Positions 20,075 to 27,489 of a stretch of 64,000 nt of DNA are shown here, in pieces (the stretch's first letter is position 1; each line of letters starts with the position of its first letter). The translations under genes and the position numbers were made by a program. Source of the DNA: Rhodospirillaceae bacterium (GTDB lineage: Bacteria; Pseudomonadota; Alphaproteobacteria; UBA8366; Aestuariispiraceae); assembly GCA_002709955.1 (NCBI GenBank), contig PAQY01000017.1, positions 1 through 64,000 on the forward strand, written 5' to 3'. A model generated the notes under the pieces. The model saw only the letters and a program-made list of their open reading frames with translations, was not told where the DNA came from and did no database searches.

Positions 20075-20191
20075 TCAGATAACGCCCTATAATCGTAAAA
20101 TGAAATATACTCATAATATAGTTGTGTGATTTATATTAAGTCAATTTTGCTTTTGATTGACTTCAGGGCGCTTTCGAAAGACGTTTGCTTT

Positions 20192-20665
20192 ATGAATACT
20201 GCTATCGTTGCCATCCCAAAACCCGCCCTGATCCTCGGTCTTCTGGGTCTGATCCCCTTCTTCGCGCCTGTGGTTACGCTGTGGAACGGGGATCCGATGT
20301 TGGCCGGGGGAGCGTTGTCGCTGCAATTTGGGTATGCGGCGGTGATATTGTCCTTTCTGGGCGGGGTGCATTGGGGACGGGCCCTGGCGGGGGATCGGTA
20401 TGGGCCGACGGGACCGCGGCTGCTGTGGTCGGTTGTGCCGTCGCTGTTGGGCTGGGTCTTGCTGTTGACGCCCGATATGGTGGTTATTCTGATCGGCTTC
20501 GTGATTGCCTTCGCGCTGGCCTTTCTGGTTGATATCAAGGCGGTGAAGGCGGGCATGTTTCCCGTCTGGTATGGTACCTTGCGCAAGATACTGACCATCG
20601 GCGTGCTGGCAGCCCTGCTGTTGACCCTGGCGGCGAGTTTCTCAGCGGTTCCGGTTGGGGCATAG
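20192..20665 (+). CDS. DUF3429 family membrane protein
   Basis: A protein of about 157 residues with four to five hydrophobic helices. It matches DUF3429 by LGLLGLIPFFAPV near the start, the YAAVILSFLGGVHWGRAL motif and the LLGWVLLLTPD segment. The function is unknown. I use the ATG at 20192 (MNTAIVAIPKP) because upstream codons lie in AT-rich flank and the first helix then starts at the N-terminus; the frame is open to 20126. The BKACE gene follows after 6 bp, so the two are probably co-transcribed. Confidence 0.78.
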   Translation: MNTAIVAIPKPALILGLLGLIPFFAPVVTLWNGDPMLAGGALSLQFGYAAVILSFLGGVHWGRALAGDRYGPTGPRLLWSVVPSLLGWVLLLTPDMVVILIGFVIAFALAFLVDIKAVKAGMFPVWYGTLRKILTIGVLAALLLTLAASFSAVPVGA

Positions 20666-20671
20666 GCCGCC

Positions 20672-21547
20672 ATGGCGACCTGGCTGGAAGTGGCGCTGAA
20701 CGGGCCCTGGACGCGGGCCAAACAACCCTTGATGCCGATCACGGTGGAAGAGGTCGTCGCCGAAGGGCTGGCCTGTATCGATGCGGGCGCGGCGATCATC
20801 CATGTGCATGCCTATGACCCCATCAGTGGACGTCAGGACGACGACTGGCAGACCTATGCCCGGATCATCGAAGGCATTCGCGCGAAAAGCGACGCGATGG
20901 TCTATCCCACCATTCCCTTCCCAGGCGGTTTGGGCGACCCCAATGGGATGAGCGCGGTTCAGCGATTCTCTCATGTGGAGGAACTGGCCAAGCGGGGCCT
21001 GCTGGAATGCGGTGTGGTCGATCCAGGCTCCACCCAGATTGCAGGTTTTGAAGAGATTGCGGGCGGGGAAATGGGGTTTCTGTACGCCAATCCCGGCGAC
21101 CATATTCAGCAGGGGCTGCAGCTGGCGGCCGAGTATAAATTCCACCCCGGCTATGCGATATACGAGCCTGGCTTTACCCGCCTGGGGGCGGCGCTGCACA
21201 AGGCGATGCCGGGCTGTCCTGTACCGATCTATCGCTTCATGTTTTCGGACGGGTTTGCCTTTGGCTTTCCGCCACAGGATTGGGCGTTACACGCACATTG
21301 TAAGCTTTTGGATCACGTCGCCCCTCAGGCCCCCTGGATGATTGCAGGCTTGCGCGTTGATATCACATCCCTGATTGCCCCTGCGGTGCGGGCGGGTGGG
21401 CATGTGCGGGTTGGGCTGGAAGACGCCCCCTGGCAGTCACAGATCAGCAATCTGGACCTGACCCGACAAGCGATCAAAGAAATAGAGGCAGCGGGCGGTA
21501 CACCGGCAAGTCCGGCACAGGTTCGATCAGTCCTGAACCGGTCGTGA
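20672..21547 (+). CDS. BKACE family beta-keto acid cleavage enzyme (DUF849)
   Basis: A Zn2+-dependent TIM-barrel enzyme of the 3-keto-5-aminohexanoate cleavage (Kce/BKACE) family, which condenses a beta-keto acid with acetyl-CoA to give an acetoacetate-type product and a new CoA ester. The 291 residues show the N-terminal EVALNGPWTR, the metal-binding HVH in AAIIHVHAYDP, a catalytic-region GLLECGVVDPGS, and the C-terminal RVGLEDAPW. The in vivo substrate varies widely in this family and cannot be read here. It may follow DUF3429 on one transcript and ends inside the 3' end of the convergent EamA gene (21-bp overlap). Confidence 0.85.
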   Translation: MATWLEVALNGPWTRAKQPLMPITVEEVVAEGLACIDAGAAIIHVHAYDPISGRQDDDWQTYARIIEGIRAKSDAMVYPTIPFPGGLGDPNGMSAVQRFSHVEELAKRGLLECGVVDPGSTQIAGFEEIAGGEMGFLYANPGDHIQQGLQLAAEYKFHPGYAIYEPGFTRLGAALHKAMPGCPVPIYRFMFSDGFAFGFPPQDWALHAHCKLLDHVAPQAPWMIAGLRVDITSLIAPAVRAGGHVRVGLEDAPWQSQISNLDLTRQAIKEIEAAGGTPASPAQVRSVLNRS

Positions 21548-22492
21548 TTTCTTCGTCAATTGCTGTTCCCGCCGGGCGATATAGATCGCGCTGCTGGCGA
21601 TGATCGCGGCACCAATCCAGGTGATGTAATCCGACACCTGACCAAAGGCGAAATAGCCGACAATTGCGACAAAGGGCAGTCTGGCATAGTCAAAAGGGAT
21701 GACGATGGAGGCATCGGCGGCGGCAAAGGCCTTGGTCATCAGGATATGACTGACCGCGCCCGTAACCCCCATACCAATGCCCAATAGCCATAATTCTGGG
21801 GTCATGGGCATCCAGACCGTCAGGGCGGGGATCAGGGTCCCGATTGTCAGGCAGACATTGGTCCAGAACACAATCCGCTCCGGGGGTTCCGTGCGGGTCA
21901 AAAGCTTGATCAACAAAGCAGACATTGCCATGCCCCCCGCGGCGGCCAGGGCCCAGATCGTGCCGGGTTCAAGGGGAACCATACCAGGGCGCAGGATGAC
22001 CAGAACACCGACAAACCCAATCGCGACGGCGGTCCACCGCCGCAAGCGCACGGTTTCGCGCAGGATCACAGCACTGCCGATCGTCGCGAAAAGCGGGGCG
22101 GCAAAACTGATCGCCGTGACTTCGGCCAGGGGCAGCATGGTCAGCGCGGTCATCCAGACAATGACCCCGACACTGGCGGTTGCGCCCCGAAACAGCATCA
22201 GAAAGGGCCGCTGTGGTATCAGATAGGCAAATCCATTCCTGCGGATGGGCTGCACCAGAAAGGGCAGCATTGCGCCTGCTGCAAAGACGCTGCGCAGAAA
22301 GGATATCTGCAACGCATCCATGCCCAACAAATTGGTTTGTTTCACCAGCCCGTTCAAACAGGCGAAAAGTGCGGCGGCCAGGGTCATCAACAGGGCGGCC
22401 ATCAAGGGGCGTCCGGGCCCAGAATCCAGGCGCACGGGAACAGCGGCGACCTTTGCCGCGACCTGATCAATCTCCGATACCGGAGGACTCAT
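21527..22492 (-). CDS. EamA/DMT-family transporter
   Basis: A 321-residue inner-membrane protein with about ten predicted helices in two EamA halves. Typical stretches are AALFACLNGLVKQTNLL, ISFLRSVFAAGAML, SFAAPLFATIGSAVILRE in the first half and IPFDYARLPFVAIVGYFAFGQ in the second. The solute is unknown. It lies downstream of the GntR-controlled operon in the same direction but is separated from it by about 300 bp of hairpin repeats, so shared transcription is uncertain. Its 3' end overlaps the end of the BKACE gene by 21 bp in convergent orientation. Confidence 0.87.
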   Translation of the reverse strand: MSPPVSEIDQVAAKVAAVPVRLDSGPGRPLMAALLMTLAAALFACLNGLVKQTNLLGMDALQISFLRSVFAAGAMLPFLVQPIRRNGFAYLIPQRPFLMLFRGATASVGVIVWMTALTMLPLAEVTAISFAAPLFATIGSAVILRETVRLRRWTAVAIGFVGVLVILRPGMVPLEPGTIWALAAAGGMAMSALLIKLLTRTEPPERIVFWTNVCLTIGTLIPALTVWMPMTPELWLLGIGMGVTGAVSHILMTKAFAAADASIVIPFDYARLPFVAIVGYFAFGQVSDYITWIGAAIIASSAIYIARREQQLTKKSRPVQD

Positions 22493-22552: not shown

Positions 22553-22657
22553 CTACAAACCCCCTGAACGGGTCATCCTGTCCATTGCGGGAAAAGGTGT
22601 TGTGCCCGTTCATCGAATTTTGCGGATGCGGTCGCAGAATACGGACGTATTTATTTT

Positions 22658-22787
22658 GCGCTCCTGCGGTTGCAGGATGCTTGGTTTACTAATGCGCTCC
22701 TGCGGGCGCAGGATGAATTAGATTGTTTTGCGCTCCTGCGGGCGCAGGATGAATTAGATTGTTTTGCGCTCCTGCGGGCGCAGGATG
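22658..22787. repeat. Four-unit hairpin array with exact 36-bp period
   Basis: Four 22-bp cores begin at 22658, 22694, 22730 and 22766. Each contains the stem TCCTGC/GCAGGA; the loop is GGTT in the first and GGGC in the other three, so the stem is conserved while the loop varies. The 14-bp spacers are AT-rich, and the second and third are identical (AATTAGATTGTTTT). The array fills the 3' flank of the SDR gene, which ends at 22790. Unequal spacer identity argues for tandem duplication of one unit. It could act as a transcript-end or RNA-stability element for the gntR operon. Confidence 0.85.
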
Positions 22788-22789
22788 CG

Positions 22790-23539
22790 CTAGCGCCCGC
22801 CGCTGACCGGCAGGATCACGCCCGTTGTATAGCGGGAGTCATTGGACAGCAGCCACAGGATCGCCTCGGCCACTTCTTCCGCGGTGCCGCCCCGCCCCAT
22901 GGGGACCATGGATTGCAGCCGTTCCACCCGGTCGGGGGCACCGGCTGTGGCGTGAATGTCGGTATCGATCAGGCCCGGTGCGACGGCATTCACGCGGATG
23001 CCTTCCTGCGCGACTTCTTTTGCCAAACCGATGGTCAGGGAATTGGTTGCGCCCTTACTGGCGGCGTAATGCACGAATTCATTGGGCGATCCCAGCCAGG
23101 CAGCGGCGGAAGAGACAATGACAATGGTGCCGCCCTTGCCCCCGCTTTTCGTCGACAGGCGTTTGACTGATTCCCGCGCACACAGCATCGCACCGACGAT
23201 ATTCAGGTTCATAACAGCCTGGATATCCTCAACCGTCATATCGACCACGCGCTTGATCCTGCCGGTAATTCCGGCATTGATCACCACCTGATCCAGCCGC
23301 CCGAACCGCCCATCAACGGCGGTGAATAAGCTCAGGACCCCGTCTTCCGTTGCCATATCTGCCTTGATCGCCAGGGCCTGCACGCCCGCCGCCTCAATCT
23401 CTGCAGAGACAGACGCCGCCGCAGCATCATTGGCGGTATAGGAGAAGGCGACATCATAGCCCCGTGCCGCCAGCATCCGGCAACACGCCGCCCCAATCCC
23501 GCGCGATCCCCCGGTGACGATGGCGACAGGATTGGTCAT
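22790..23539 (-). CDS. Short-chain dehydrogenase/reductase
   Basis: A 249-residue NAD(P)-dependent oxidoreductase of classical SDR type. The cofactor motif TGGSRGIG is at residues 9-16, NAG lies at VVINAG, and the catalytic Ser-Tyr-Lys is in VSSAAAW and VHYAASKGA. The C-terminal PVSGGR is typical of 3-oxoacyl-ACP-reductase-like and sugar dehydrogenases; the substrate cannot be chosen from this. It is the fourth gene of the tight gntR-phyH-oxidoreductase-SDR operon, 15 bp after the preceding gene. The hairpin array begins right after its stop. Confidence 0.9.
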   Translation of the reverse strand: MTNPVAIVTGGSRGIGAACCRMLAARGYDVAFSYTANDAAAASVSAEIEAAGVQALAIKADMATEDGVLSLFTAVDGRFGRLDQVVINAGITGRIKRVVDMTVEDIQAVMNLNIVGAMLCARESVKRLSTKSGGKGGTIVIVSSAAAWLGSPNEFVHYAASKGATNSLTIGLAKEVAQEGIRVNAVAPGLIDTDIHATAGAPDRVERLQSMVPMGRGGTAEEVAEAILWLLSNDSRYTTGVILPVSGGR

Positions 23540-23554
23540 GGCGGCGGTCTCCTT

Positions 23555-24892
23555 TTAAGAGAAGGCGGCTTCCATCTCTTTCCGGAAGCGCAAAGTTGGG
23601 TCTTGTTCGTCCAGGACCACATCGTCCCAGGTCAGGACCTGGTCGGTGGCGACGGAACGCTTCAATGTGATCCCATGGGCAAGGCCAATCGGCAAGGCCC
23701 CTTTTGCGCGGGATGTGGCCGCAGGCATTAATTTGCCATAGACGGTATAACCGCCTTCGCCATCCAACTGATCACCCTGCTTTAGGGGCTTCTTGGCGGT
23801 GGCAACAGCATCCCCTGCCCAGGCGCGCGGCGCGCCGGTGGCTTCCTGACGCAGGGCGGCACTGGCAACAGAAATCCCCAATTCCAGCCCAATCAGGTGA
23901 TAGGGCTTGTACATCGTGGAATAACGCCCGGTTGGATCTGTCAGCAGCCCGTATTCCGAAAAACAGCGGGCGACATAATCGCTGGGCGCTTCAAAGGTGA
24001 CATAAACGCCCCAGCGCAGATCCCGGAAGACCGGGCGACCATCCCGCTCCACGCTGGAAACCACTTCCACCGTGCCCTTGCGGCTTAGGACGCCACCTGT
24101 CTCTCTGGGGGATAGGATGCGCGGCAAATCATCCACGCCACACGGCGGAAAGGCCAGACCATCGTCTTGTGGGACCAGATCACAGGCGTTGGAAACGGCT
24201 GCCATCTCAATCGCAGATTTGGTGCCATCCAGGAAGCTGTTGAACATTTGCGGATTCATGCCCCCGGCCTTTGCCTGTTCCGGTGTCAGACCGTAATGGG
24301 TCCAGACATCGTCAGGTGTCACATGGTGATAGGCGGGCAGGTATTTCGTCCCCTTCCCAGCACAGACGATGTTCATGCCAACCGCCCGGCCCCAATCGAC
24401 CATTTCCGCGATCAGGGCAGGTTGGTCACCATAGGCCAGACTGTAGACCAGACCGGCCTGTTCAGCCTTTTTCGCCAATAGGGGGCCGGCCAGAACGTCG
24501 GCCTCCACATTCACCATGACCAGATGGCGACCGTTTTCGATGCCTTTCAGGGCATGGCGAATGCCCGCCGCCGGGTTGCCGGTGGCGTCGATCAGGACTT
24601 CCAGGCCATCCGCCTCGATCAAGGCATCGGCATCTTCGGTGATCCAGGTTTTCTTCTGGGCCAGGGCGGTGGCGGCGTCGGGGGCGTCATAACGCTCCTT
24701 CGGCCATCCAACCCGTTCCAGCGTTGCGCGGGCACGATCCGCACTCAGATCGGCAATGCCCAGAACGTGATAGCCCGGATGATGGCCGCATTGGTTCAAA
24801 AACATCGCGCCGAATTTACCGGCACCGATGATGCCAACGCGAACGGGATTCCCCTCCGCCGCGCGGCGACGGAGTTTTGCGTCAAGATTCAT
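23555..24892 (-). CDS. SAF-domain NAD(P)-dependent oxidoreductase (predicted homoserine dehydrogenase-like)
   Basis: A 445-residue protein with an N-terminal Rossmann fold (VGIIGAGKFGAMFLNQ, about 18-33), a substrate domain with VLIDATGNPAAGIRHAL and GKGTKYLPAYH, and a C-terminal part that resembles a SAF domain (VATAKKPLKQGDQLDGEGGY). This matches the family called predicted homoserine dehydrogenase with SAF domain. Members occur in carbohydrate-acid and other catabolic clusters and do not serve threonine synthesis. It is 6 bp after phyH and 15 bp before the SDR gene, in an operon with a GntR regulator. Oxidation of a hydroxylated or sugar-acid-like substrate is my inference. Confidence 0.8.
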   Translation of the reverse strand: MNLDAKLRRRAAEGNPVRVGIIGAGKFGAMFLNQCGHHPGYHVLGIADLSADRARATLERVGWPKERYDAPDAATALAQKKTWITEDADALIEADGLEVLIDATGNPAAGIRHALKGIENGRHLVMVNVEADVLAGPLLAKKAEQAGLVYSLAYGDQPALIAEMVDWGRAVGMNIVCAGKGTKYLPAYHHVTPDDVWTHYGLTPEQAKAGGMNPQMFNSFLDGTKSAIEMAAVSNACDLVPQDDGLAFPPCGVDDLPRILSPRETGGVLSRKGTVEVVSSVERDGRPVFRDLRWGVYVTFEAPSDYVARCFSEYGLLTDPTGRYSTMYKPYHLIGLELGISVASAALRQEATGAPRAWAGDAVATAKKPLKQGDQLDGEGGYTVYGKLMPAATSRAKGALPIGLAHGITLKRSVATDQVLTWDDVVLDEQDPTLRFRKEMEAAFS

Positions 24893-24898
24893 ACCAAA

Positions 24899-25714
24899 TT
24901 ACTCCGCCGCCTGGGCTGTGCGAGACGACTGATGGGCCGCGACCAGATCGTCCAGGCAGTTGTCTTCCAGGGGCGTGATCGGGGTGAAATCGCGATGGGC
25001 GATCCATTCCTTGCGCTTGAACTGGCGGATATGATTGGAAACGGCGCACAGGCTCAAATAGACGATGGTGCGGTCGAACGGGCTGATATTGGCCGGGCTG
25101 GCATGGACCAGATTGCCATGGAACATTACCACAGACCCTGCCGGGCCGACCGGGGCCTCACAGCCGCCTTCCTTTGCCAGGCGTGATACGGTTTCCCGGT
25201 CCAGTGTCCAAAGAGGATAAGAGGTGGTTTCCAGGTCATGCCCGGCTTCCAGCACACCGGCCTCATGGCTTTCCGGGATGAACAACAGCGGCCCATTGGC
25301 GGGCGTCACGTCTTCCAGGAACAGGGCGATGTTAAAGGCTCGGGGTTCGGGCATGTCATCGTCGCGCTGCCAGGTGCCGTAATCCTGATGCCATTGCCAG
25401 ACATCACCGTCAAAGGCGGCTTTGGCGTTGATCTTGTACTGATGCATATAGACCTGTTCTTCCAGGATCTGCATAACAGGTCCCAGCAGGCGCGGATGGG
25501 CGCCCAGGCGACGGTGTGCCTCGTTATACGTATGGGCGGCAAAGGCGGTGCGCGCGACACCCGTGGATTCGCGCCAGACCTCTTCCCGGTCGGTCGCATA
25601 AATGGCTTTCGCCTCGTCCAACAGAAGCGCTGCTTCTTCGCGGGAGAACAGTTCAGGCAGGAAGACGAAGCCTTTCGTCTTGAAATCGGCCAGGGCCGCT
25701 TCGCTCAATTTCAT
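24899..25714 (-). CDS. Phytanoyl-CoA dioxygenase (PhyH) family protein
   Basis: Predicted Fe(II)/2-oxoglutarate-dependent hydroxylase of 271 residues. The facial triad is visible as His109-x-Asp111 in WQWHQDYG and the distal His204 in NLVHASPANIS, with Arg215 in FDRTIVY positioned to bind 2-oxoglutarate. The HxSxxN-type ending resembles EctD-like members, but no ectoine genes are near and the substrate is unknown. I use ATG 25714 because a strong AAGGAGAGT precedes it by a short spacer; the frame is open to 25780. It is the second gene of the GntR operon, followed after 6 bp by the SAF-domain oxidoreductase. Confidence 0.85.
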   Translation of the reverse strand: MKLSEAALADFKTKGFVFLPELFSREEAALLLDEAKAIYATDREEVWRESTGVARTAFAAHTYNEAHRRLGAHPRLLGPVMQILEEQVYMHQYKINAKAAFDGDVWQWHQDYGTWQRDDDMPEPRAFNIALFLEDVTPANGPLLFIPESHEAGVLEAGHDLETTSYPLWTLDRETVSRLAKEGGCEAPVGPAGSVVMFHGNLVHASPANISPFDRTIVYLSLCAVSNHIRQFKRKEWIAHRDFTPITPLEDNCLDDLVAAHQSSRTAQAAE

Positions 25715-25766
25715 GATACTCTCCTTTTCCTCCAATGGGCCCATCCGATCTTGTGTGTCGGTGGGG

Positions 25767-26435
25767 TCAGTTTTTCTCAATCATCCACCCGATCAACTGA
25801 TCTGCGGCGTCTCGGGCATGGTGTACGGCACGGGTTTCCGCCAGAACGGCATCCCCCTGTCGAATGGCGTAGGCAATACCGGCATGCTCTTCCCAGACAG
25901 AGGCCCGGGCGGTGCGATGTTCCAGAACCGCGCGCATGACGCGGCGAATTTGACGCCACACGGCGGCAGACGCCTCCGGCAGCATGGGATTTCCTGATAA
26001 TTCATAAATCGCCTGATGAAAGGCGATATCCGCCTGAACCAGCGCGGTCGTGTCTTCTGCTTCCAGGGCCAGATAGCCCGCCTTCATTTCTGTGACCAGG
26101 GCATGGCGGCGCAGGGAGTCTGGCTGTCCCGCCGCCAATCGTGCAGCCAGCCCATCGAAGGCAGCACGCAGATCATAGACATGGCGGGTGGTTTTCGCAT
26201 CCACGGCGGTTACCTGAAAGCCGCGCTTTCCCGACGGTTCAATCAGGCCGTCGCGCTTGAGCATCGACAAGGCCTGGATAATCGGTTGGCGCGATACGTT
26301 CAGTTCTTCGGCCAGCCATTCCTGGCGCAACGGGGTGCCGGGTGCCAGATCGCCGGAACAAACGGCCTCCACCAGGCGCGCATGCACCTGATCAACCAAA
26401 CTCATCCGTTCCGCCACCGGTTCCATTCCAGACAC
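25767..26435 (-). CDS. GntR family transcriptional regulator (FCD type)
   Basis: A 222-residue regulator: winged-helix domain at about 12-75 (LVEAVCSGDLAPGTPLRQEWLAE.., NVSRQPIIQALSMLKRDGLI), then an all-helical FCD ligand-binding domain with the metal/ligand signature of this family (VYDLRAAFDGLAARLA, ADIAFHQAIYELSGNPML, EEHAGIAYAIRQGD). It is the first gene of the phyH operon. A 28-bp near-perfect palindrome lies 33 bp upstream of its start, a natural autoregulatory operator. FCD proteins generally sense small organic acids and de-repress catabolic genes; the inducer is not known here. Confidence 0.92.
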   Translation of the reverse strand: MSGMEPVAERMSLVDQVHARLVEAVCSGDLAPGTPLRQEWLAEELNVSRQPIIQALSMLKRDGLIEPSGKRGFQVTAVDAKTTRHVYDLRAAFDGLAARLAAGQPDSLRRHALVTEMKAGYLALEAEDTTALVQADIAFHQAIYELSGNPMLPEASAAVWRQIRRVMRAVLEHRTARASVWEEHAGIAYAIRQGDAVLAETRAVHHARDAADQLIGWMIEKN

Positions 26436-26467: not shown

Positions 26468-26495
26468 ATTTGTATTCTGTATACAGAGTACAAAT
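26468..26495. promoter_or_regulatory. Putative GntR operator, 28-bp palindrome
   Basis: The half-sites ATTTGTA and TACAAAT bracket a centre of CTGTATACAG; the whole 28 bp is self-complementary except for one pair. The TGTATACA core is the type of symmetric site bound by FCD-class GntR proteins. It lies 33 bp ahead of gntR, between that gene and the 12-bp minisatellite, and no second copy was found at the phyH start. I infer that it controls the gntR-phyH-oxidoreductase-SDR operon and gntR itself. Confidence 0.72.
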
Positions 26496-26532: not shown

Positions 26533-26616
26533 GGGGTCTTGCACGGGGTCCAACACAGGGTCCAACACAGGGTCCAACACAGGGTCCAACACAGGGTCCA
26601 ACACGGGGTCGAAACC
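26533..26616. repeat. 12-bp tandem repeat (minisatellite)
   Basis: Seven 12-bp units run from 26533 to 26616. The central four are identical AGGGTCCAACAC (26557-26604), preceded by GGGGTCCAACAC and a diverged GGGGTCTTGCAC, and followed by GGGGTCGAAACC. The array sits in the intergenic region between gntR and the EI24-type gene. The period is a multiple of three, so frames stay open through it in both directions, giving artificial GSNT and VLDP repeat peptides that I do not regard as genes. Copy number may vary between strains. Confidence 0.9.
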
Positions 26617-26685: not shown

Positions 26686-27489
26686 ATGCTGTTTGATAAT
26701 ACGGCTTGGATGCAGTGCGTCCCGTTCCCCCCGCAAGTAAGGTTGATCGATCTGATGTTTAGCGCGTTTGGCAAAGCCTTGGAGCAATTGCCCGACCCCC
26801 GTTTTTTGCGGGTGGTTCTGATGGGAATTGTTGGGGCAATCGTGACGATGATCCTGTTGTGGTCCGCTGTTGGCTGGGCCTTGCAACAGGTTAATTGGAC
26901 CCAGCTCTGGCTGATCGGCGGGGCGATTGAATCCTTGGGCAATGCTGCAGATGATATTGGCTGGATATCCTTCGCGCTGGGCGCGGGGGGGCTGACCTGG
27001 CTTTTGTTCCCGGTCACCGCGGTATCCGTGATCAGCATTTTCCTGGACAATGTCTGTGAAGCCGTTGAAGCAAAGCATTACCCGCAACGCACCAATGCTC
27101 GCAGCCAGCCGATCCTGGAAGCGATCTATGGCGCGCTTAAATTTCTGGGTATCACGATCCTTTTGAACCTGATCGCCCTGCCGGTCTATCTGATCTTGCT
27201 GGTCGTCTTTGGGTCGGGGGCGTTTCTGTTTCTGTTTGTGAACGGATATCTGGTGGGGCGGGAGTTTTTTGAACTGGTGGCCGCGCGGCGTATGCCGGTT
27301 GGCCCAGCCCAGCGACTGCGCAAAGCCTATGCGACGAAATTCATTGTTTTCGGCATCCTGTCGGTCCTGTTGATGTCTATCCCAATCGTCAACTTGATTG
27401 CGCCGGTCCTGGTCGCTGCTGCTGCGGTCCATTTGTATGAATCTCTGCCCAGAAAGGCAGAGTTTGAAGCCATGACCGGTGAGGCGTAA
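26686..27489 (+). CDS. EI24/CysZ-like membrane protein
   Basis: An inner-membrane protein of up to 267 residues with about four long hydrophobic regions. It matches the EI24 domain family, which includes the sulfate permease CysZ. Family-like segments are LEQLPDPRFLRVVLMGI, FLFVNGYLVGREFFELVAARR and the C-terminal AYATKFIVFGILSVLLMSIPIVNLIAPV. No cysteine or sulfate-assimilation gene is adjacent, so I do not call it CysZ. The true start may be the Met at 26755 (MFSAFGKAL), which fits the family better than the first 23 residues. A lipoprotein candidate follows 35 bp downstream. Confidence 0.8.
   Translation: MLFDNTAWMQCVPFPPQVRLIDLMFSAFGKALEQLPDPRFLRVVLMGIVGAIVTMILLWSAVGWALQQVNWTQLWLIGGAIESLGNAADDIGWISFALGAGGLTWLLFPVTAVSVISIFLDNVCEAVEAKHYPQRTNARSQPILEAIYGALKFLGITILLNLIALPVYLILLVVFGSGAFLFLFVNGYLVGREFFELVAARRMPVGPAQRLRKAYATKFIVFGILSVLLMSIPIVNLIAPVLVAAAAVHLYESLPRKAEFEAMTGEA

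Follow-up and report, generated by a model that had tools for sequence, protein, structure and literature searches.

A Widespread gntR-phyH-drl Gene Unit with a Probable Role in the Catabolism of a Small Carboxylate

The Locus and Its Genes

The window analyzed here is a 64,000-nt stretch of contig PAQY01000017.1 from a Rhodospirillaceae bacterium (its own genome is G000; other genomes and loci carry G and L numbers). At positions 22790-26435 it holds four open reading frames (ORFs), all on the minus strand, coding for a GntR regulator (gntR), a PhyH-type dioxygenase (phyH), an oxidoreductase with an SAF domain (drl) and a short-chain dehydrogenase/reductase (SDR). These and the associated features are as follows.

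25767..26435, minus strand: gntR, FCD-type GntR regulator and first gene of the unit (Pfam GntR and FCD)
24899..25714, minus strand: phyH, Fe(II)/2-oxoglutarate dioxygenase of the free-amino-acid or small-acid hydroxylase type (Pfam PhyH)
23555..24892, minus strand: drl, predicted NAD(P)-dependent oxidoreductase of the DXR-II fold with an SAF domain, DLO2-like (Pfam DRL_cat and SAF; structural model; motif comparison)
26468..26495, unstranded: putative GntR operator, a 28-bp palindrome in which 26 of the 28 positions obey the symmetry, lying 32 bp ahead of the gntR start
22790..23539, minus strand: SDR dehydrogenase, probably a co-transcribed accessory outside the conserved unit (Pfam adh_short_C2; kept alone in the congener G001)
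21527..22492, minus strand: EamA-type transporter, putatively serving the unit (Pfam EamA; weak enrichment near the unit)

An earlier note on this DNA had placed the four genes at these positions, with intergenic gaps of 52, 6 and 15 bp from gntR through phyH and drl to the SDR gene. The coordinates confirm this and Pfam agrees for all four; the spacing suggests that they form one transcript. For phyH the start was taken as the ATG at 25714, preceded by GGAGGAAAAGGAG; a longer ORF with a TTG start at 25780 overlaps gntR and was not preferred. A scan for consensus promoters was uninformative, with 1 site against 2.2 expected in shuffled sequences.

Conservation and Co-occurrence of the Unit

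A search of conserved neighborhoods, as the earlier note had proposed, reveals that the combination of gntR, phyH and oxidoreductase recurs. Among 118 loci, picked by oxidoreductase similarity and not randomly, a PhyH gene (at least 40% identity) lies within 6 kb of the oxidoreductase in 28; in 27 of these it is upstream on the same strand, and in one (L087) on the opposite strand. A gntR gene adjoins the PhyH or the oxidoreductase gene in 29 gene-called loci, the window counted. The order, with PhyH upstream of the oxidoreductase, is kept. The arrangement exceeds chance, and its conserved core is gntR-phyH-oxidoreductase, to which the SDR is more loosely attached. The nearest named oxidoreductase is that of Thalassospira profundimaris, at 80% identity. 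In the set formed by the own genome and its relatives, the oxidoreductase is matched at E 0.001 or better in 34 of 59 genomes, with G027 and G049 reaching only 29-34% identity. Scattering of the genes in close relatives, which the earlier note had named as an argument against a common pathway, proved partly true: it applies to the SDR and to G011, where an oxidoreductase is found without an adjoining PhyH gene (L055), but the genes stay together as far as the contigs reach in G002-G005, G007 and G012.

Because a good part of 46 PhyH loci with flanks of 1.5 kb or less shows no oxidoreductase in the flank, co-occurrence was tested genome by genome in 385 genomes of the class, with cutoffs of E 1e-60 or better for PhyH and E 1e-100 or better for the oxidoreductase. 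PhyH is matched in 68 genomes, 63 of them at 53% identity or more; the other five (G049, G161, G225, G264 and G269), at 48% or less, were excluded from the count, and four of these also carry the oxidoreductase, G049 being the exception. The oxidoreductase is present in 89 genomes, which include all 63 PhyH-positive ones; 26 have it without PhyH and 296 have neither (Fisher p ~1e-51, shared ancestry ignored). The two genes lie within 4 kb of each other in 40 of the 63 genomes and farther apart or on separate contigs in 23, the whole group spanning 32 families and the unlinked cases 12. In these 385 genomes the dependence seems to run one way, with PhyH requiring the oxidoreductase but the oxidoreductase not requiring PhyH.

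The gene unit is real and widespread. As far as literature searches show it is undescribed: no description of it was found in the open-licence literature, and no paper joining "SAF domain" and "phytanoyl-CoA dioxygenase" was among the matches listed there. The enzyme families that it combines are already known.

The Position of the SDR

The four genes might encode a single three-enzyme pathway with the SDR as its obligatory last step, in agreement with the gap of only 15 bp between drl and the SDR gene and with 12 same-strand runs in which an SDR follows the oxidoreductase. However, the congener G001, whose genome has no oxidoreductase match at E 0.001, retains an SDR of 69% identity that directly adjoins the homolog of the window gene at 26686, with gntR, phyH and drl absent between them (L278; for phyH and gntR the absence refers to this locus, and for drl to the whole genome). 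Moreover, of the 22 loci from outside the order in which PhyH and the oxidoreductase both appear, none has an SDR directly after the oxidoreductase, and in the wider order SDRs follow oxidoreductase genes with or without PhyH. G008, G013 and G011 have their best SDR match at another genomic location; in L082 an SDR directly follows the oxidoreductase, and in L134 one lies upstream of gntR. Since G001 keeps the SDR while lacking exactly gntR-phyH-drl at this place, we regard the SDR as an accessory, probably co-transcribed, and not as a member of the conserved unit, and a three-enzyme pathway as unlikely. The earlier note's sequence of hydroxylation followed by NAD(P)-dependent oxidation fits the one-way dependence of PhyH in the 385 genomes; its use of the SDR as an obligatory step is not supported.

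The Hydroxylase

The solved proteins closest in sequence to PhyH are the trans-3/4-proline hydroxylase H11, the leucine hydroxylase GriE and the ectoine hydroxylase EctD. The AlphaFold model (mean pLDDT 88.2) ranks GriE first at Z 32.2, with H11 at ~31, EctD at ~29 and human phytanoyl-CoA hydroxylase at 23.1; GriE and H11 superpose on it with an rmsd of 2.1-2.4 over ~250 aligned residues and share its fold. Near the C-terminus, Arg234 is invariant in the PhyH clade and lines up with an arginine present in both GriE and H11; in GriE this arginine holds the substrate carboxylate. Sixty-six non-redundant PhyH sequences were retained from 79 aligned, and in all of them the predicted ligands of iron (H109, D111 and H204) and of 2-oxoglutarate (S206 and R215) are invariant. 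These align with the corresponding EctD residues, taken from excerpts of PMC2871039, so that the HxD...H triad is present together with its Ser and Arg.

By its model, PhyH groups with the free-amino-acid hydroxylases GriE and H11 (fold Z about 31-32), with which it has the iron and 2-oxoglutarate residues and the C-terminal arginine in common, and with EctD, which it resembles in fold and catalytic residues. GriE and H11 are nevertheless only 32-42% identical to the window protein (H11 41%). Because H159, D160, T164 and P167-W169 are invariant in the clade and not shared by GriE or H11, the PhyH clade probably has a substrate of its own. Identity with EctD was rejected. The score against NCBIfam TIGR02408 is 136.4 bits, with a cutoff of 336.5, and in place of the 17-residue signature FxWHSDFETWHxEDG(M/L)P, given in excerpts of PMC5924519 and PMC2871039, the window has WQWHQDYGTWQRDDDMP; a match to ectoine degradation, one of the refuting outcomes named in the earlier note, is thereby excluded for the hydroxylase. 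The own genome contains four more PhyH-family genes, at C9:22598-23215 and at C11:194815, 236911 and 250323.

The Oxidoreductase

The closest solved relative of drl in sequence is Brucella DXR-II (PDB 3upl/3upy), a 1-deoxy-D-xylulose 5-phosphate (DXP) reductoisomerase. The drl model (mean pLDDT 93.0) matches 3upy with Z 48.8 and an rmsd of 1.7 over 425 aligned residues, far ahead of ordinary DXR (Z up to 19.5) and homoserine dehydrogenase (Z 17.7), so that both the DRL_cat plus SAF architecture and the DXR-II fold are present. The identity over the structural alignment is only 31%, however. Two residues singled out in excerpts of Carretero-Paulet 2013 (PMC3847144), the substrate anchor Thr229 and the dimer-cavity residue Arg320 of DXR-II, are replaced in drl by Ser226 and Lys329. 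The lysine of GKG is conserved, but where DXR-II has its GKGKNN loop, drl reads GKGTKYLP and then carries an insertion, which enlarges the substrate loop.

By taxon and similarity, drl resembles the DLO2 group: excerpts of PMC3847144 list a member from Achromobacter, and the window drl shares 61% identity with proteins of that genus.

Could drl be an alternative DXP reductoisomerase that makes 2-C-methylerythritol phosphate (MEP) for isoprenoids, with PhyH a coincidental neighbor or a modifier of an isoprenoid precursor? Brucella DXR-II is its best match in both sequence and structure, and DXR-II can coexist with ordinary DXR according to excerpts of PMC3847144. Yet the own genome encodes an ordinary DXR, and because of this and of the differing key residues and loop we set the MEP role aside as highly improbable. 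The same excerpts also report that none of four DLO1/DLO2 proteins put to the test could stand in for DXR, and the pairing of drl with PhyH, GntR and transporters fits catabolism better.

A Putative Operator

On the gntR strand the near-perfect 28-bp palindrome reads ATTTGTACTCTGTATACAGAATACAAAT. At up to three mismatches it is a single site in the own genome; among congeners, G002 likewise has one, just upstream of gntR, and G004 also has one, while five other genomes searched have none. With one genomic site only, a regulon search by this operator revealed no distant transporter. Among 29 gntR genes tested, palindromes with a similar core lie 15-24 bp upstream of gntR in L051, L227, L229 and L230, and more distant ones in L079, L160 and L210. 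A pattern scan of the other gene-called loci, whose pattern the window's own slightly asymmetric palindrome does not match, found 14 distinct sites: nine no more than 40 bp from a called gntR start (those of L224, L232 and L234 fall just inside the called ORF), one (L126) beside an unlabelled start, and four elsewhere. The gene caller can misassign frames in high-GC loci and picks the farthest start, and for these reasons some operator distances are off and the neighbor lists below may miss genes.

The palindromes near gntR support a local operon that is probably autoregulated. Together with the tight spacing and the presence of the oxidoreductase in 63 of 63 PhyH genomes, the operator-like palindrome lends good support to the earlier note's idea of a GntR-controlled oxidation unit.

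Transporters and Partner Genes

Many neighbor labels in this section rest on similarity to Pfam-tested or annotated representatives and not on per-gene Pfam runs. The oxidoreductase is alone in its run in 42 of 142 loci; elsewhere its partners include SDRs, GarR-like dehydrogenases, SMP30 lactonases, zinc alcohol dehydrogenases, class II aldolases and RipC-like lyases. A major facilitator superfamily (MFS) gene comes directly after it in 11 of 142 loci, mostly in Caballeronia and relatives. Several partner transporters are of organic-acid types, namely TRAP (L041, L042, L055, L073 and L076), TAXI-TRAP (L123 and L231), CitMHS (L037 and L038) and Mem_trans (L230), and a peptide-type ATP-binding cassette (ABC) system is found in L048. 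Also nearby are an SBP_bac_3 gene in L058 and a branched-chain amino-acid ABC system in L073. At L112 the same-strand run joins the oxidoreductase to a Rieske protein, a ferredoxin-reductase-like gene, an aldolase and a GntR gene, and at L132 to another PhyH gene and one of the old-yellow-enzyme type. The pattern that recurs is an oxygenase combined with this DXR-II-like oxidoreductase and a transporter.

In many relatives the cassette or a lone oxidoreductase lies between sdhCDAB and AFG1-mdh-sucCD-sucA. This placement, seen within the taxonomic order of the window and more widely in the class, with the oxidoreductase accompanied or not by PhyH and the SDR, would suit a role in metabolite repair or housekeeping within central metabolism instead of the catabolism of an external compound. 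Nevertheless, the site may merely be a common chromosomal one, the local GntR with its operator-like site and the repeated pairing with transporters suit a nutrient pathway, and presence is patchy (PhyH in 63 and the oxidoreductase in 89 of the 385 genomes). We therefore consider a housekeeping role quite unlikely.

The Proposed Pathway

We consider it probable that gntR-phyH-drl is a small, self-contained catabolic unit for a small carboxylate, which PhyH hydroxylates to a product that is then oxidised or rearranged by the DXR-II-like enzyme. This carboxylate is probably a free amino or hydroxy acid of small size; it would enter through the host's paired transporter and be hydroxylated by PhyH with O2 and 2-oxoglutarate. 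The hydroxylated acid would then be oxidised by drl with NAD(P)+, possibly with a carbon-skeleton shift of the DXR-II type, and the breakdown completed by housekeeping enzymes or by local partners such as the SDR, a GarR-like dehydrogenase, a lactonase, an aldolase or a CitE-like lyase. Acting through the palindrome, GntR would keep the operon, its own gene included, repressed until an inducer is present. Plausible substrates would be short amino acids or short branched acids with one or two hydroxyl groups.

A bolder version, which we advance tentatively as possible but doubtful, has the dioxygenase make a branched polyhydroxy acid whose skeleton the DXR-II-fold enzyme then oxidatively rearranges, so that reductoisomerase chemistry would serve the catabolism of unphosphorylated acids in Alpha- and Betaproteobacteria and beyond.

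Alternatively, the unit might degrade a free amino acid, to which PhyH would add an omega-hydroxyl that the homoserine-dehydrogenase-like drl oxidises to an amino-acid semialdehyde for core metabolism (e.g., 2-aminobutyrate via homoserine to aspartate semialdehyde). Such a route needs two enzymes only, as in the minimal unit, the nearest solved PhyH relatives hydroxylate leucine and proline, and homoserine dehydrogenases are among the more distant structural neighbors of drl. Against it, drl fits DXR-II (Z 48.8) and also ordinary DXR better than homoserine dehydrogenase, the last two being a near tie; several of the partner transporters are of organic-acid types; and no aminotransferase was identified among the neighbors, in the course of work that included no search aimed at one. 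We judge this route rather unlikely. A lead from homoserine catabolism on pRL8 of R. leguminosarum, where the annotated homoserine dehydrogenase spans ~353 codons against 445 here, was set aside.

Several points weigh against a dedicated carboxylate-degrading unit. The case is built on sequence and models, and enzyme activity, transcript and growth phenotype are all predicted. The 63 of 63 co-occurrence ignores shared ancestry. Many of the 29 gntR genes tested, and most of those not named above, have no palindrome by the test applied. The transporters, which include MFS proteins and the peptide-type ABC system of L048, vary between lineages and for that reason do not fix one substrate. Unlinked PhyH genes, finally, adjoin amidase, luciferase-like, GMC, AMP-ligase or PLP-dehydratase genes, and from these neighbors PhyH could also serve other routes.

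Should the catabolic reading hold, the substrate is likely common in nature, because PhyH occurs in 63 of 385 genomes across 32 families. The analysis singles out two enzymes, PhyH and drl, to be studied together. Identifying their reaction would test skeleton-shifting DXR-II-fold chemistry outside isoprenoid synthesis and assign a function to DLO2, a branch of the DXR-II family that, like DLO1, was described as uncharacterised in excerpts of Carretero-Paulet 2013 (PMC3847144).

Neighboring Genes and Further Observations

The earlier note had suggested that the nearby EamA transporter and BKACE enzyme might extend the pathway. For EamA there is a weak enrichment: such genes make up 11 of 989 near the unit and 4 of 1257 farther off (p = 0.02), the 11 including two from close congeners and one that was a seed of the search. 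At L250, in the 1.2-Mb genome G140, a 294-aa gene of EamA-like appearance, itself a seed of the EamA search, overlaps the oxidoreductase gene but matches the window EamA only weakly (23% identity, E 0.002). BKACE, by contrast, was rejected as a pathway member, its co-location being only patchy (in the window itself, in two close relatives and in one further genus). It lies next to a DUF3429 gene at 20126-21547 of the window and also in another genus of the family (L049), which suggests that DUF3429 and BKACE are a pair of their own.

Two other leads were dropped. A citramalate-type end point was considered from CoA-transferase and RipC-like lyase neighbors at L055, L059 and L135, which score below curated cutoffs and are too few. 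The neighbors of PhyH genes without an adjacent oxidoreductase (amidase, luciferase-like, a PLP dehydratase with a galactarate-dehydratase-like gene, GMC, AMP ligase and MFS) do not converge on one substrate. At L242 (3903-8903) the run that holds a PhyH ortholog also encodes two ABC permeases, a serine/threonine dehydratase and an SAF protein resembling galactarate dehydratase.

The window also has two repeat arrays. One, at 22654-22787 between the SDR and EamA genes, consists of 3.7 copies of a 36-bp unit that contains an inverted repeat; the other, at 26542-26610 upstream of the operator, has 5.8 copies of a 12-bp unit (CACAGGGTCCAA).

More distant DXR-II-type homologs, 32-36% identical, were met at L271 (7962-12609), L272 (7983-12740), L273, L274 and L277. 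Those of Rhizobium, Pseudoroseomonas, Ligilactobacillus and Listeria innocua lie with glucitol-type phosphotransferase system (PTS) genes, and that of Priestia with MFS and FGGY kinase genes. Three of the five loci also have genes for a pyruvate/acetoin-type E1-E2 complex (best NCBIfam matches: pyruvate dehydrogenase), in place of which the Ligilactobacillus locus has fructose-6-phosphate aldolase and transketolase. These genes might serve to take up and phosphorylate 2-C-methylerythritol, oxidise the MEP to DXP and cleave this to acetyl-CoA and glyceraldehyde phosphate; to judge by title, none of the papers listed by a literature search deals with such a route. Among 289 genomes of the class, two were found to carry close homologs of these proteins. 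In Deinococcus taeanensis (L275, 4373-9302), the gene for a DXR-II-like SAF protein comes after a set of nucleotide-sugar genes (cytidylyltransferase, SDR and rfbC), a context that hints at branched-sugar chemistry.

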